From a virus, in the IMG/VR virus record IMGVR_UViG_3300025401_000111, positions 1 through 21,702 of that record: DNA of 21,702 nucleotides; one strand, given 5' to 3'. The notes beneath the pieces were generated by a model, which ran no database searches, was not told where the DNA came from, and saw nothing but the letters and a program-made list of their open reading frames with translations. The position numbers and the translations under genes were made by a program. Position 1 is the first letter of the stretch, and each line of letters opens with the position of its first letter. Below, one piece after another: positions 1 through 21,056 of this stretch.

Positions 1-130
1 GGTATCGCTCTGCCTCTTGGTCAGTAGCTCCCTGCATTCCTCGGTTGATAAAGAACTCGTACACCTTGCGGCGTATAGATCCGAGTGCTGGCTCGATTTT
101 CTCGCGGGCTTCCAGAGATGTAGTCCTCAT
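1..130 (-). CDS. HTH-like protein, partial (3' end off window)
   Basis: The first 43 codons of a minus-strand gene that leaves the window at base 1. The ATG at 130-128 overlaps the TGA of the upstream gene (ATGA), the usual coupling of co-transcribed phage genes. The visible protein begins MRTTSLEAREKIEPALGSIR and continues with a helix-rich stretch and acidic positions (GATDQEAERY). This resembles small phage DNA-binding proteins in which a first helix precedes a winged or helix-turn-helix domain. Only the N-terminus is visible, so the fold is inferred. It probably belongs to the same operon as the gene at 127-666. Confidence 0.6.
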   Translation of the reverse strand, partial: MRTTSLEAREKIEPALGSIRRKVYEFFINRGMQGATDQEAERY

Positions 131-666
131 GACAGCTCCGTTACTCGCTTGTTGAGGGCATCCTTAATCGTTGTCCCTCTCACGGGAAAATCCAAATTAT
201 CTTTCTCATCCTGCCAAATCTTGCGTAGGGCATCCACCTCGTTAATTTCTTGAATCATGTCGAGGATTTTTTCTAGGCGCTCGGTCTGCTCTGGGGTTAA
301 GGTGCGAACTGCATAGGGAGTTTTTACCTTGCTATATCGCTCGACCTTTTCCATCTCCTCACGGCTAGGGCGCTTATTGCCCGAGAAAGTGAAGTTAGCT
401 AAAGCGCGACCGATGGCTGAGGTTTCGCATACTTCCAGAGCCGATGTCTTGGTGACCATAGATGAGCCAACGATTTCCTCTGCCATGCCGGAGGTCACGC
501 AGCGCTCGTCTTCACGATCCGTATAAACGAAAGCCTGAACAATGAATCGGTTATCGTCATTGTGCAGTATTTGTGTGTGGATTCTTCCGCTGGGATATTG
601 CTCCCAGAACTTCTTAACGCGGGATTCGACTGTGTCGTAATCCTCTAGGTTGAACTTGCCTGCCAT
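127..666 (-). CDS. Probable recombination/ssDNA-associated phage protein
   Basis: A protein of 179 residues. The ATG at 666 is chosen because AGGAAGG lies just upstream (about 676-670); an upstream in-frame start at 744 would read through the promoter region. The central part carries the block KTSALEVCETSAIGRALANF (residues about 73-92), preceded by an alpha/beta section with FIVQAFVYTD (41-50). The C-terminal half is charged and helical (LTPEQTERLEKILDMI). Proteins with this ETSAIGRALA signature are common in actinophage early regions near recombination or SSB-like genes, and ERF-family annealing proteins carry a loosely similar motif. I place it as a recombination-associated protein on recall of the family only; no catalytic residues can be assigned. 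It is the first gene after the promoter at 716-744 and overlaps the next gene by four bases. Confidence 0.6.
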   Translation of the reverse strand: MAGKFNLEDYDTVESRVKKFWEQYPSGRIHTQILHNDDNRFIVQAFVYTDREDERCVTSGMAEEIVGSSMVTKTSALEVCETSAIGRALANFTFSGNKRPSREEMEKVERYSKVKTPYAVRTLTPEQTERLEKILDMIQEINEVDALRKIWQDEKDNLDFPVRGTTIKDALNKRVTELS

Positions 667-715
667 GATTCGCCTTCCTGTAGGGGATTCCTTCTCTGAA
701 ATCCTGTTGAGGCAG

Positions 716-744
716 ACAGTACGCGATAGATTACGGTAATTCAA
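716..744 (-). promoter_or_regulatory. Sigma-70-type promoter for the leftward operon
   Basis: On the minus strand, TTGAAT (744-739) and TACTGT (721-716) are separated by exactly 17 bases. This is a good match to a housekeeping -35/-10 pair. Transcription would start near 709, giving a leader of about 43 bases before the ATG at 666. It sits in the only divergent intergenic region of the window, as expected for the promoter of the left-end genes. Confidence 0.55.
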
Positions 745-782: not shown

Positions 783-968
783 ATGATTCGAGTCCAAATA
801 AGCCTGTGGAGTCTTGCCGTTGTGGTCGAGGCTGAGCTGAAATACCCTGACCAGATAGACGATATATGCAACAGGGCTAACAGCTTATTTGTGACGGGCT
901 TAATGGCCGCTAAAAATCAGGGCATAGATATCGTCCAGCCTGAGCTGATAGACGAGGACGAAGATTAG
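783..968 (+). CDS. Small acidic-tailed protein, the only plus-strand gene
   Basis: A protein of 61 residues of unknown function. The sequence looks like a real protein: an N-terminal beta/hydrophobic stretch (VQISLWSLAVVVEAEL), a helical middle (IDDICNRANSLFVTGLMAA) and an acidic tail (ELIDEDED). Its TAG (966-968) overlaps the TAA of the opposing gene (967-965) by two bases, a tight convergent junction more typical of selected gene ends than of chance. The start is placed at 783 because a -10 element lies at the right distance for a leaderless transcript. It faces the whole leftward structural operon, so it could be expressed at a different time. Similar short proteins occur in actinophages, but I cannot assign a role. 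Confidence 0.6.
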   Translation: MIRVQISLWSLAVVVEAELKYPDQIDDICNRANSLFVTGLMAAKNQGIDIVQPELIDEDED

Positions 969-1495
969 GGCTTAGCCTGCTCCATGAAGTAAAAGGGCGC
1001 GGCTGTATATGGGTCGTGAATGCTTGCAATTTCTAGGGCTTTGCTTATACTCGCCCCCGCCTCTAGCGCTCCAATGGCTAAGGACGAGCCAGAGCCTACG
1101 GCGTAGAAACCGGTGCTACTCATGCTGACGGCAAAGTCATCGGCAATATCAAAGACCTCACCGGCAACGGCAATAAGAAACGCGAACTTAGTCTCCTCAT
1201 CGGTCTCCTGCCATTTGTATTCCTGATCCTTAAAACTGTTTTTCAGGCTTGGCACGACTTTGGCAATGATGAAGTGATAGATGTCCTTTTTATCTGCCGC
1301 CGTAGGGGTGGGCGGTGTCCAAATATGTTGAGCAATATCGCAGGCCGCGCTCTCACCACTTCCGGCAATGATGAAAGCGCCCCGCCGCGTTATCTTGGTC
1401 ATTCGTGGATGGCTGTATTTGCGCGTTGCAGTTACAAGTGAGTCAGCGCCAAAATATACGCCGTCATCTTTCTGTATCGCAACGATTGTAGTCAT
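965..1495 (-). CDS. HslV/proteasome-beta-like Ntn hydrolase (threonine peptidase)
   Basis: A protein of 176 residues starting MTTIVAIQ. Removal of the initiator Met exposes a threonine, which would be the nucleophile. Counting from that threonine, Asp lies at 17 (GADS), Lys at 33 (TKI), a glycine-rich AGSGES at about 43-48, GSGSS at 133-137 and a D-x-x-T pair at 160/163. The order and spacing match the Thr1/Asp17/Lys33 and distal Asp-x-x-Ser set of HslV and 20S beta subunits, and the length is close to HslV (about 175). No propeptide is visible, as in HslV. The reaction would be processive or limited peptide hydrolysis in the cytoplasm. No HslU-type ATPase is seen in the window, so it would act alone, with a host ATPase, or as a specialised self-compartment. 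The ATG overlaps the upstream stop (TAATG). Confidence 0.8.
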   Translation of the reverse strand: MTTIVAIQKDDGVYFGADSLVTATRKYSHPRMTKITRRGAFIIAGSGESAACDIAQHIWTPPTPTAADKKDIYHFIIAKVVPSLKNSFKDQEYKWQETDEETKFAFLIAVAGEVFDIADDFAVSMSSTGFYAVGSGSSLAIGALEAGASISKALEIASIHDPYTAAPFYFMEQAKP

Positions 1496-2367
1496 TAGCC
1501 AAAAACTTCCAACCCATAAGAAGATTCATCACCATTGCAAGAAAACGGCGAACAAGTAAAGAGTTCCTGCTGATCTTCCGCAATTTCTTTTCGTGAACGA
1601 ATTGAAAGATCTGCTTCATTAAGAGGCACGAACGATTTATGAAGAAAAAATAAGTTGTTTTTAGTTCGAGGCTGATCAGCGTGAAATTCTCTCATTCGCT
1701 TATCAAATTCAATCGCATCCAAAAATTCTTCCGGAGCGTTATCCCTCATATCTCGCCATTGTTCGTTAGTTCTAAACGGGCAAGCAATACACGCAGATTT
1801 TGGCGTTTGACCAAATCCATATTTTTCTAATACCGCCAAGCAATCTTTGCGAGTCATTCTTTTATCTAAAAGAGGAAAAACATTTTTGATGTAATTTACA
1901 TCCGAATCTTTAGCCCGATGCAATTCGTCAAGGCTAATTCCAATCCATTGTTCAACCTGTTCGCCTTTTTTTACGCGACTAACAGATCCATTTTCCAAAA
2001 CTTCCGCCCCAAGTAATTCACGAATTTTTCTTTTGATAGGTGCAACTTTGTATTCGCTAGTGCATTGTCTTCTTGCCATCCCCTTTGATCCATCGGGTTT
2101 GCGAACGAATAAAGGCATCGAAGCAAATCCGTGATCAACGCTTAACGCATCTTCACGGATATTTCCGGCTGATACTCGATAAATTGGAATACCGGCTGGT
2201 TCGGCAATTTCTTTTTCAATCTTATCAAGATGATCATAAACGGCTTGCGGTTCGTATCCCGTATCGGCAAAAATAGCGGCATCCAACTGATGCTCGAACA
2301 TATTTTCTGCCGCCATCAGTAATAGCGTTGTAGATTGAACTCCCGCACCTAAAGATAAAATTCTCAT
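1495..2367 (-). CDS. PP-loop ATPase, PAPS-reductase-like superfamily
   Basis: A protein of 290 residues. The N-terminal SLGAGVQST (5-13) is the pyrophosphate-binding loop of adenine-nucleotide alpha hydrolases, followed by AAIFADTGYEP (30-40). ARRQC (98-102), C176 and SACIACPF (191-198) supply C102, C176, C193 and C196, which could hold an Fe-S cluster or metal; two more cysteines lie near the C-terminus (272, 277). The family is widespread in actinophages and bacteria and is often annotated as phosphoadenosine phosphosulfate reductase, but sulfate reduction is not shown. Nucleotide or tRNA thiolation-type chemistry is equally possible. The ATG at 2367 overlaps the upstream TAA; another in-frame start at 2379 lies inside the previous gene. 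The gene is AT-richer than its neighbours (24 of 60 G+C at 1561-1620, against 34 of 60 at 3001-3060), suggesting recent acquisition. Confidence 0.75.
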   Translation of the reverse strand: MRILSLGAGVQSTTLLLMAAENMFEHQLDAAIFADTGYEPQAVYDHLDKIEKEIAEPAGIPIYRVSAGNIREDALSVDHGFASMPLFVRKPDGSKGMARRQCTSEYKVAPIKRKIRELLGAEVLENGSVSRVKKGEQVEQWIGISLDELHRAKDSDVNYIKNVFPLLDKRMTRKDCLAVLEKYGFGQTPKSACIACPFRTNEQWRDMRDNAPEEFLDAIEFDKRMREFHADQPRTKNNLFFLHKSFVPLNEADLSIRSRKEIAEDQQELFTCSPFSCNGDESSYGLEVFG

Positions 2368-3401
2368 TAGTCCAGCCACACCTTGTAAGCCGCTGTGACG
2401 CGACCCTTTACTGGATCAACAAAGTGGAGTCGCTGGGATGGGGTTGCTGATGCTGCGAGCATGACTCCGGCGTAGCGGTTGTCTGACTCTGTAGAACCTG
2501 TTTGATAGACACTACCCTGACCGTTTGCCATCGCCCATTCTGCGTGCGTGTGGTAGTGGCCGATATAGACATCTCTAAACTCCCATGGATACGCTCCGCT
2601 TCGCCAACGATTTGCGTGCTGAACGATTGCTCCCGGACTTGCAAATCCATTTCTGCCAACCTCGTCTCCGTGAATAAGGAGTGCCTTGTAGTTGCCAATC
2701 TCCACGCGCTGAATGTCCTCGGGACACTCTTGCCATGTAAGTCGCTTTTCTCCCGCGAGAAGCTGTCGGGCTAACTCGTAGCACATACGGTCAAAGTTAT
2801 CTGAGCGCGGGACATTATCGCGCTTAGAGCCGATGCGACCATGATTGCCCCACTCGGGGACAACGGTCACCTTAGAATAATTGGCAAGCGCATATCGAAC
2901 AACATCTACGCAGAGTCGAGAAACATTGACATACTGCTCAAAGAGCGTGGCATCAACCTCGAACGCTTGGCTTGGGAAATTAAAAAGTCCCTCAACCATG
3001 TCACCGCCGAACATAATCACGCACTCATTGACGGGATGATCCGCGCGCATGATGTCGGTGATGGTCACGGCCTTCTCTGCAAAGCTGAGAACGCGAGTCC
3101 TCATTACTTCCGAGTTATAGGTTGTCGTTCTTTTAGCGCCTTGCCAATCGGTCATGTGCCAGAGCGCCACTTCCGATTTCTTCTTTCCCGCAGGTAGTTT
3201 TCGTTCTTTAACTGGTTCGATTGGGCCCATTCCCAAAACAGCGTCGTGCGCCGCTTGGTGCGTGACCTCGACCAATTCATCCGTGCGTTGCTTCGCCTGC
3301 AACAGTTGTTTCTGCACGCGCATGAGCGCCTTGCGAAGCTCAATGACATCATCTGACTCAATACCTTCTGGAAGCGCATTTAATCTATCCTCTAAGCTCA
3401 T
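2367..3401 (-). CDS. Calcineurin-like metallophosphoesterase
   Basis: A protein of 344 residues. Residues about 16-55 form a charged coiled coil. The phosphoesterase domain follows with its metal-binding blocks in order: HMTDWQ (82-87), GGDMVEG (132-138), GNHGR (185-189), LLIHGD (241-246) and GHYHTH (281-286). The first block has Asp-Trp-Gln where most relatives have Asp-x-His, a variation I recall from other phage members of the family. The overall architecture recalls SbcD/Mre11-type nucleases, so DNA cleavage during replication or recombination is a fair guess, but a cyclic-nucleotide or other phosphodiester substrate is not excluded. The ATG at 3401 has AGGA five bases upstream and overlaps the end of the preceding gene by 17 bases. 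Confidence 0.8.
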   Translation of the reverse strand: MSLEDRLNALPEGIESDDVIELRKALMRVQKQLLQAKQRTDELVEVTHQAAHDAVLGMGPIEPVKERKLPAGKKKSEVALWHMTDWQGAKRTTTYNSEVMRTRVLSFAEKAVTITDIMRADHPVNECVIMFGGDMVEGLFNFPSQAFEVDATLFEQYVNVSRLCVDVVRYALANYSKVTVVPEWGNHGRIGSKRDNVPRSDNFDRMCYELARQLLAGEKRLTWQECPEDIQRVEIGNYKALLIHGDEVGRNGFASPGAIVQHANRWRSGAYPWEFRDVYIGHYHTHAEWAMANGQGSVYQTGSTESDNRYAGVMLAASATPSQRLHFVDPVKGRVTAAYKVWLD

Positions 3402-3657
3402 CTATTCCTACAATCGTTTGACCGTGCTGGGTGTAGCCGGATTTGTCGAACCATGAGTCCTCATGGAATGGGTTGTGGAATAGTCGAACGGACTTTAACG
3501 CATCCATCATAAGCGCTACTTGGTAGGCAGGGATGTCATCTTCTAGTTTGAGAAATCCCGCCCAGACGCGACCGATAGCGGTGAACTCGGTATAGGGATC
3601 GCCGTATTCGCCTAAGCGCTCATCTAGGATTTTCTTTACTCGGTCGGACATTTGCAT
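3385..3657 (-). CDS. DUF6378-like protein
   Basis: A protein of 90 residues. Its conserved look is given by RLGEYGDPYTEF (14-25), YQVALMMDALKSVRL (45-59) and HEDSWFDKSGYTQHG (65-79). I recall this pattern from the phage family DUF6378, small helical proteins of unknown function found near nucleotide-metabolism genes. The GDP and H-x-D-x-W-x-D positions look suited to metal or nucleotide binding, but that is a guess. The gene overlaps the previous one by 22 bases and has no clear ribosome-binding site, so it is probably translated by coupling. Starts at 3657 and 3651 are both possible. Confidence 0.65.
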   Translation of the reverse strand: MQMSDRVKKILDERLGEYGDPYTEFTAIGRVWAGFLKLEDDIPAYQVALMMDALKSVRLFHNPFHEDSWFDKSGYTQHGQTIVGIDELRG

Positions 3658-19250: not shown

Positions 19251-20204
19251 TTATTCCTCGTCAGAGATTTTTCCGGCTTTGGCTAGGTATTCCTTTTCCA
19301 ATGCCTTGTATCCCTTGGCGAGAATTTGGTCTGAGGTCGCTGTCGCCTTGAGGCGGTATTCAGCGGCTTTGAGCAGGAGCTCGTTTTCATTTGTGACAGC
19401 TACGCGTCCGGTGCGCTTTGGGCCACCTGATGCAGCTGCCGATTTTGCCGTTACGAGTTCTGATTCAAGAGCTACCGCCTTCTCCTCAGCCGCCTTATGT
19501 GCAGCTTGAAGTTCCGCGATCTCAGCCTTGACTGATTCAGTCGCACTCTTTACAGCTTTCTCGATGATGGCCGAAACGGACTTCTCATCAAGAATCTCAT
19601 CTTCTTTATCCTCAGCAGGGGCTTCCTCAGAAACCTCATCTGCTGGCTTATCTTCAACAACTGCCTCATCGCCTTCGGCTGACTTAATGCTTCCAGCATT
19701 TTGCTCTGGAGTCATAATGGTCGCGGTTGAGACATTTGCAACTTCGTTAGTTGGAGTCGCGCCGGTGACAACTACTTGGCTGAGGCCGTGAGTTGAGTTA
19801 GGGATATGGCATCCGCACTCTAGGCACTTGCTGATGTCAGCGGACTTTGCGGACATCTTGGTGCAGCCCTTACAGACATCATCGTCGCATCCGCCGTCAG
19901 CTTGGCAGGCAGCGCAACCATCGCAGTCGCAATCCTTTGAGGTCATATCAGCGGCAAGGTTAATCATGCCGGGGGTCATGCTTGCTTCGTTGTCCTCATC
20001 CAATTCGCCATCGCGGAAGTTAAAGAGGTGCTTGAGAGCCGATAGCAAGGTGTCAATATCATCGCGCTCGTCTGAGTCTGTGGCTGCGATTTCGCTGGCC
20101 TCAGAGATGATGAGCTGTGCGATTCCCTTGCGGGCTGCATCGTATGAAGCCTGATCGAACTTAGCAGAATCAGCATGGATTTCTTTAATGATGTCAGCGA
20201 GCAT
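19251..20204 (-). CDS. Nested scaffold protein from internal in-frame start
   Basis: The ATG at 20204 (residue 285 of the long protein, context KEKSMLADIIKE) is preceded by GAAGGAAAAATCT, a Shine-Dalgarno similar to those of the neighbouring genes (AAAGGAAA before the capsid, AAAAGGAAA before the gene at 21347). It begins 20 residues after the protease domain ends, so the product of 317 residues would be scaffold only. Lambda C/Nu3 uses the same nested arrangement. The nested product is inferred from the start signals and the domain boundary. Confidence 0.5.
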   Translation of the reverse strand: MLADIIKEIHADSAKFDQASYDAARKGIAQLIISEASEIAATDSDERDDIDTLLSALKHLFNFRDGELDEDNEASMTPGMINLAADMTSKDCDCDGCAACQADGGCDDDVCKGCTKMSAKSADISKCLECGCHIPNSTHGLSQVVVTGATPTNEVANVSTATIMTPEQNAGSIKSAEGDEAVVEDKPADEVSEEAPAEDKEDEILDEKSVSAIIEKAVKSATESVKAEIAELQAAHKAAEEKAVALESELVTAKSAAASGGPKRTGRVAVTNENELLLKAAEYRLKATATSDQILAKGYKALEKEYLAKAGKISDEE

Positions 20205-21056
20205 AGATTTTTCCTTCGTTGTAGTTGTAAATTCTTCGACCTTCACAAGATTAGGTTCGCCCTCTACGCTCTTGGCGAGCATGAGCTTGGCATTTGGGTT
20301 AGCTGGACGATCCACAAGAGAAATCTCCACGATTTGTCCGTCAATGATGCGGCCGTTAGCAGCCTTCTGGTCACGGACAACGCGTGGGGACTTGATGCCT
20401 ATTGAGAATCCCTTAAGAACGCCTGATTCCACTTTCTTAACGCTAATAGGGTCAACGACAAGAGCAGAAATATAATGACCATCCGCTTTCGCTTCATATT
20501 CTTTCGCTACTCCTGCCGCAATAGATGAGTGTTGTTCGCGGATGTTACCGCCGGACTTAAACCACTCTGGCATAGCAGAGGAGAGCCAAGCGTCATCGCA
20601 AATCTGCTGGTCAATATCAAGAGAGTCATCGGTTGCTTTGCCATAGACAAGCAGCGAGCCATCTTCTTGCTTTTCTTGCTTAACGATAGCCGCGTATGAA
20701 TTAGCGAAGTCATTGACCATAAGTGATTTCTCCTTGTTAAGTTTCGCGGCAACGCTTTCAGCCCAAGACTTTCCAGCGTCTCCACCCCATGCATCCCAAG
20801 CCACTCGGCCCGGTGATGGGAATCCTTTTTCTCCCTGATTAAATCCTTCTGCTTTTTTGTCCACTTCGTGACGGGCAAAGAAGCTGACCATTCGCATAAT
20901 GGTATCGCGTGATAATCCTTCGCGCCGTGAGAGTTGTCCAGCTCTGTTGCGTCCTGCACCTGTAAAACCATCGCCGGCATGACCATCGCTGATCCAGCCG
21001 AGTGCGCGCTTTGCTGCTGCCGCTGCCCCAGCGGGCGGGACAAAGGTTTCTGACAT
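19251..21056 (-). CDS. Prohead protease fused to scaffold-like domain
   Basis: A protein of 601 residues in three parts. Residues 1-112: Ala-rich helix, then SRDTIMRMVSFFARHEVD (49-66) and GRVAWDAWGGDAG (83-95), a recurrent actinophage extension. Residues about 113-265: an S78-type protease with LLVYGKATDDSLDID, H176 (IREQHSS) and S218 (KGFSIGIKS) as likely catalytic residues and the closing EISLVDRPANPNAKL. Residues 280-601: acidic, helical, ending in a coiled coil (VKAEIAELQAAHKAAEEKAV), as in scaffolds. Between about 376 and 416 ten cysteines occur. The ATG at 21056 has no Shine-Dalgarno but follows the upstream stop closely, whereas ATGs at 20720 (AAGGAG) and 20204 (AAGGAAA) do have them. 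It processes the capsid shell and its own scaffold. Confidence 0.85.
   Translation of the reverse strand: MSETFVPPAGAAAAAKRALGWISDGHAGDGFTGAGRNRAGQLSRREGLSRDTIMRMVSFFARHEVDKKAEGFNQGEKGFPSPGRVAWDAWGGDAGKSWAESVAAKLNKEKSLMVNDFANSYAAIVKQEKQEDGSLLVYGKATDDSLDIDQQICDDAWLSSAMPEWFKSGGNIREQHSSIAAGVAKEYEAKADGHYISALVVDPISVKKVESGVLKGFSIGIKSPRVVRDQKAANGRIIDGQIVEISLVDRPANPNAKLMLAKSVEGEPNLVKVEEFTTTTKEKSMLADIIKEIHADSAKFDQASYDAARKGIAQLIISEASEIAATDSDERDDIDTLLSALKHLFNFRDGELDEDNEASMTPGMINLAADMTSKDCDCDGCAACQADGGCDDDVCKGCTKMSAKSADISKCLECGCHIPNSTHGLSQVVVTGATPTNEVANVSTATIMTPEQNAGSIKSAEGDEAVVEDKPADEVSEEAPAEDKEDEILDEKSVSAIIEKAVKSATESVKAEIAELQAAHKAAEEKAVALESELVTAKSAAASGGPKRTGRVAVTNENELLLKAAEYRLKATATSDQILAKGYKALEKEYLAKAGKISDEE

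Follow-up and report, generated by a model that had tools for sequence, protein, structure and literature searches.

A gene in the window, the 21,702-nucleotide stretch of viral DNA analyzed here (IMGVR_UViG_3300025401_000111), encodes a protein that is well supported, by its predicted fold, its active-site residues and its conservation, as a phage threonine peptidase of the proteasome superfamily:

965..1495, minus strand: proteasome-like (group I, BPH/HslV-like) N-terminal threonine peptidase, 176 aa, no propeptide

The open reading frame begins ATG ACT ACA on the minus strand, and the plus strand of the same interval yields stops; a preliminary description of this DNA had placed the gene correctly without stating its strand. 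With the initiator methionine removed, the protein carries Thr1, Asp17 and Lys33 in the register of the proteasome, as had been read earlier from the translation, and the two distal motifs named at that time were both located, a G-S-G at residues 133-135 and a D160-x-x-T163 with the spacing of proteasome Asp166/Ser169. The match to the Pfam family PF00227 (Proteasome) is a narrow pass (23.3 bits, gathering score 22.4), and PHROG 1040 ('peptidase HslV family') matches over almost the full length (E 2.2e-27). These two matches, together with the invariance of the residues in 62 sequences, argue that the active-site pattern is not due to chance.

A search of IMG/VR recovered 141 relatives of the peptidase, of which 80 loci with 62 distinct sequences were retained. 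T1, D17, K33, G44, G46, G133, G135 and T163 were invariant in all 62 distinct viral homologues, and D160 was kept in 61 of them. Loss of Thr2, Asp18 or Lys34 (as counted with the methionine) in close homologues, raised in the preliminary description as evidence that would speak against the assignment, did not occur. The codon following the initiator encoded Thr at all 80 loci, and an oxyanion-hole glycine (near position 47) is present, with G44 of the peptidase aligning with G45 of HslV. Comparison of the window gene with those of L002 and L005-L007 gave a dN/dS of 0.04-0.06, and with synonymous change so far above amino-acid change the gene is maintained by purifying selection. One sub-lineage (L074, 4502-5056, and L078, 8001-8555) carries two extra residues between Asp17 and Lys33, which move the Lys by two in sequence, yet this Lys is still aligned.

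Beyond the metagenomic records, tblastn found relatives in 101 phage records, among them Microbacterium and Arthrobacter phages and an actinobacterial lake phage, where the annotation reads 'protease' or 'ATP-dependent protease subunit'. A relative was also present on 24 plasmids, which come from Rhizobium, Sinorhizobium, Mesorhizobium, Paraburkholderia, Bacillus and Streptomyces. Conserved-peptide patterns found none in 84,980 bacterial and archaeal genomes; these patterns are narrow, consisting of two short peptides, and the scan speaks only to the absence of close relatives there.

An AlphaFold (AF2) model of the peptidase, built on 29 sequences, reached a mean pLDDT of 90.1 and a pTM of 0.87. 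In a Foldseek search of the PDB, the top match was the betaproteobacterial proteasome homologue (BPH) of Thiobacillus denitrificans (E 4.7e-11), followed by HslV and 20S beta subunits, so that a structure search lacking any Ntn fold, the other outcome that the preliminary description had named as adverse, was not what was found. VIA alignments of the model gave a Z of 18.2 for BPH 5ovt (rmsd 2.8 over 162 residues), 17-18 for HslV and about 17 for 20S beta, and 1000 PDB chains scored Z >= 8, the best at 18.2. Because Z differences under 1 were counted as ties, the fold class is certain, but structure does not by itself settle which member is nearest. Sequence searches of the PDB again put BPH first (5ovu, E 3.4e-6 with the single sequence and 5e-7 with a profile). 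The model has helices at 49-58 and 72-90, the latter long; it shows the two helix pairs known from ring-forming members, and its strands 35-38 and 41-47 are connected by a short turn. Many related proteins, mostly without names, were also found among predicted viral structures.

The peptidase shares with HslV (ClpQ) the fold, the Thr1/Asp17/Lys33 residues and the length, but it falls far short of the cut-offs of both HslV equivalog models (21.6 and 21.9 bits, with cut-offs of 157.75 and 137). In an alignment-based comparison, every one of the 62 sequences had a presumed pore loop, between helix 72-90 and strand 104-110, of 14-17 residues with a net charge of -3 to -5, whereas the corresponding loop of Escherichia coli HslV has 7 residues and a net charge of +2. 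A long acidic pore loop is what sets BPH, which has no known unfoldase, apart from HslV (PMC5777263; PMC8665760). HslV in the strict sense was therefore rejected on the basis of the equivalog scores and the BPH-like loop; of the earlier label 'HslV/proteasome-like threonine peptidase', the proteasome-superfamily part is upheld by fold, active site and conservation, and the HslV part is not. HslV has HslU as its partner. Genes of the AAA_2 (HslU/ClpX) type were not seen in 37 related virus records, nor was an AAA domain seen in 19 records, one of them the window, in searches whose positive controls were found in 14 of 14 reference genomes. This extends to the related viruses the earlier remark that no HslU-like ATPase was visible, although the missing unfoldase is suggestive only, since most of these virus records are partial and an HslU of the host might fill the role.

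Phage-borne members of this superfamily have been described before. Fuchs, Alva and Lupas reported in 2021 22 new proteasome homologues, among them PPH, a protein of about 140 aa that lacks helix H2 and occurs both in phages and in the hosts of these, and AAH, which many phages carry as well; neither AAA+ partners nor a function were found for these homologues, and the authors were unable to find an AAH phage specific to Actinobacteria (PMC8665760). BPH (PDB 5ovs/5ovt/5ovu) is the closest solved relative in both fold and sequence, and has in common with the peptidase the Thr1/Asp17/Lys33 residues, the long acidic pore loop, the lack of a propeptide and the lack of a known AAA+ partner. The two differ in that they share only about 25% identity, the peptidase is phage-borne, and BPH is a homo-tetradecameric double ring, whereas the peptidase is known here from its sequence and an AlphaFold model. 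In standard assays BPH was inactive and bound epoxomicin only (PMC5777263).

For comparison with AAH and PPH we used proteins whose labels are themselves inferred: 'AAH-like' for Rhizobium, Streptomyces, Bacillus plasmid and Psychrobacter/Moorella phage proteins (the plasmid proteins by taxonomy and length), and 'PPH-like' for phAPEC8 gp175 and phiM5 gp03. AAH-type proteins resemble the peptidase in being full-length group I members of 170-200 aa with both helix regions and in their phage and alphaproteobacterial/actinobacterial spread, but the AAH-like set is only about 24-32% identical to it and lacks the D-x-x-T motif. PPH is likewise phage-borne, with the catalytic Thr/Asp and a distal D-x-F-S/T that resembles the D-P-Y-T of the peptidase; PPH as defined was nevertheless excluded, since the peptidase has 176 aa and both H1 and H2 in the model. 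In a 25-sequence tree with long branches, the plasmid-type (AAH-like) proteins were set off from the window lineage on a branch of their own (99/97); the window lineage itself joined ct2KA10 and three actinophage proteins loosely (81/85). AU tests did not reject a joining of the window lineage with AAH-like (p 0.108), PPH-like (p 0.33) or HslV (p 0.07) sequences. The peptidase may belong to AAH or to an unnamed subfamily.

With moderate confidence, we favor a role of the peptidase as a group I proteasome homologue that carries out ATP-independent, self-compartmentalized proteolysis early in infection. The fold, the active-site residues, purifying selection and the Met-Thr N-terminus without a propeptide are each shown or strongly supported; from there on the mechanism is inferred. 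Host methionine aminopeptidase would expose Thr1, and the subunits would build a closed homo-oligomeric double ring, a 12- or 14-mer, in which the O-gamma of Thr1 would act as nucleophile aided by Lys33/Asp17. Entry past the long, acidic pore loop would be open to unfolded or flexible polypeptides with no AAA+ unfoldase dedicated to the task, a mode already proposed for BPH, and the likeliest role would be to eliminate a restricted group of proteins, either host or early phage ones, early in infection.

Several other readings were weighed. If unfolding is required, the lack of an unfoldase in the phage records means that one would have to come from the host, and a chamber of HslV type working with a host AAA+ ATPase (HslU/ClpX or an actinobacterial proteasomal ATPase) would agree with a fold that matches HslV as well (Z 17-18); the low equivalog scores, a pore loop that is long and acidic where that of HslV is short, and the absence of a co-occurring AAA+ partner in the 2021 survey (PMC8665760) make this unlikely. 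The peptidase might instead be a specialized Ntn enzyme, such as a sequence-specific protease, an amidase or a connectase-like ligase, and not a general chamber protease. Connectase shows that the fold can give a monomeric ligase (PMC8665760), and Anbu, like BPH, was inactive on standard substrates (PMC5777263). In the AF2 model, however, the short turn joining strands 35-38 and 41-47 gives no sign of the insertion that connectase has between strands 3 and 4, and the model has both helix pairs typical of ring-forming members; we regard this reading as rather doubtful. A low probability is also given to the more specific proposal that the window lineage, together with ct2KA10 and the DSL-LC01, Microbacterium and Arthrobacter proteins, forms a group I subfamily of its own, so far unnamed, whose members break down an actinobacterial host or defence protein selectively and with no need for ATP.

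A phage-encoded protease could also serve in capsid or scaffold maturation, and the short homologue of Sinorhizobium phage phiM5 does lie between terminase and portal. The window, however, contains a separate candidate for this function, beside a large gene taken as the major capsid gene by gene order:

19251..21056, minus strand: head-maturation-protease-like gene (PHROG 3270, E 1.3e-5; HK97 proheadase, E 0.026)

Because of this candidate, and with the peptidase gene located beyond the lysis genes and adjoining nuclease-type genes, and with a separate annotated capsid maturation protease in Microbacterium phage WaterT, a capsid role for the threonine peptidase is very improbable. In the 601-aa product of 19251-21056, an N-terminal stretch of PHROG 2859 type and a stretch resembling head-maturation proteases are joined to a long acidic tail that contains cysteine; the protein is possibly a protease-scaffold fusion.

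The genes around the peptidase, preceded directly upstream by an endolysin (CHAP and peptidoglycan-binding), are as follows:

127..744, minus strand: PHROG 11717 protein, downstream neighbour (PHROG match)
1495..2379, minus strand: PAPS-reductase-like PP-loop protein (PHROG 424, E 1.8e-51)
2367..3401, minus strand: phosphoesterase/exonuclease-like protein (PHROG 284, E 2.5e-38)

The phosphoesterase gene was found at 39 of the 80 loci, mostly directly upstream of the peptidase, with an offset of 1022-1058 bases, about the length of the gene, in 27 of the 39; its stop overlaps the peptidase start in L007, and the two genes abut in close relatives. The window has the PP-loop gene at precisely this junction, with a TAATG stop/start overlap at each end. 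Among the 80 loci this gene is limited to 5, with 2 copies at the junction and 3 about 2 kb downstream of the peptidase, and it is absent from the L007 junction; the gene thus moves between sites and, being rare and missing where the two flanking genes abut, is best read as an inserted passenger. For the same reasons the PP-loop protein was rejected as a functional partner. The PHROG 11717 gene lies just downstream of the peptidase in 34 of the 38 loci that carry it, and its product contains an ETSAIGRALA motif that may hint at ERF-type annealing proteins; Pfam provided no name for this protein or for the phosphoesterase. At 40 of 80 loci, the phosphoesterase is preceded upstream by a conserved DUF6378 protein (3385-3657, 90 aa). 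In L001 and L007, the downstream order is the PHROG 11717 protein, a winged-helix-like ORF, a RecB-like nuclease ORF (both named by eye) and WhiB. Neighbours differ in the distant relatives L042, L071 and L076, so no neighbour accompanies the peptidase in every relative as a conserved partner, and no specific target is indicated. As for the early-type cluster with a PP-loop ATPase and a phosphoesterase that had been proposed, an early or recombination setting is plausible from the conserved phosphoesterase upstream and, in L001, the RecB-like nuclease and WhiB downstream; the locally inserted PP-loop gene is uninformative.

Of 38 related records, 26 encode WhiB, an actinobacterial marker (PMC10202952, PMC6802176). 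The window, a 21.7-kb fragment, has no WhiB gene; in L001, whose peptidase is identical to that of the window, WhiB lies about 2.9 kb downstream of the peptidase start, a distance that would fall past the left end of the window. Since related records including L001 carry WhiB, the host is probably an actinobacterium, and the virus probably infects lake Actinobacteria. In the actinophage DSL-LC01 from Dishui Lake (L083, 6001-6954), a proteasome-like gene directly precedes a whiB gene.

Because proteasome homologues from phages have been in the literature since 2021 (PMC8665760) and are catalogued as PHROG 1040, the novelty is below what the preliminary description implied, and the addition made here, a conserved freshwater actinophage lineage of such homologues, is modest. 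In the literature searched, we found neither an experimentally tested phage proteasome homologue nor this peptidase gene in freshwater actinophages; in the literature examined, these proteins are catalogued without an assigned function. The present analysis records such genes from phages that probably infect Actinobacteria, a group for which the 2021 survey had no specific AAH phage. The window lineage occurs frequently in virus metagenomes from lakes and is strongly conserved, compact and propeptide-free; it is therefore a convenient test case for asking whether phages encode ATP-independent compartment proteases and what their substrates may be.
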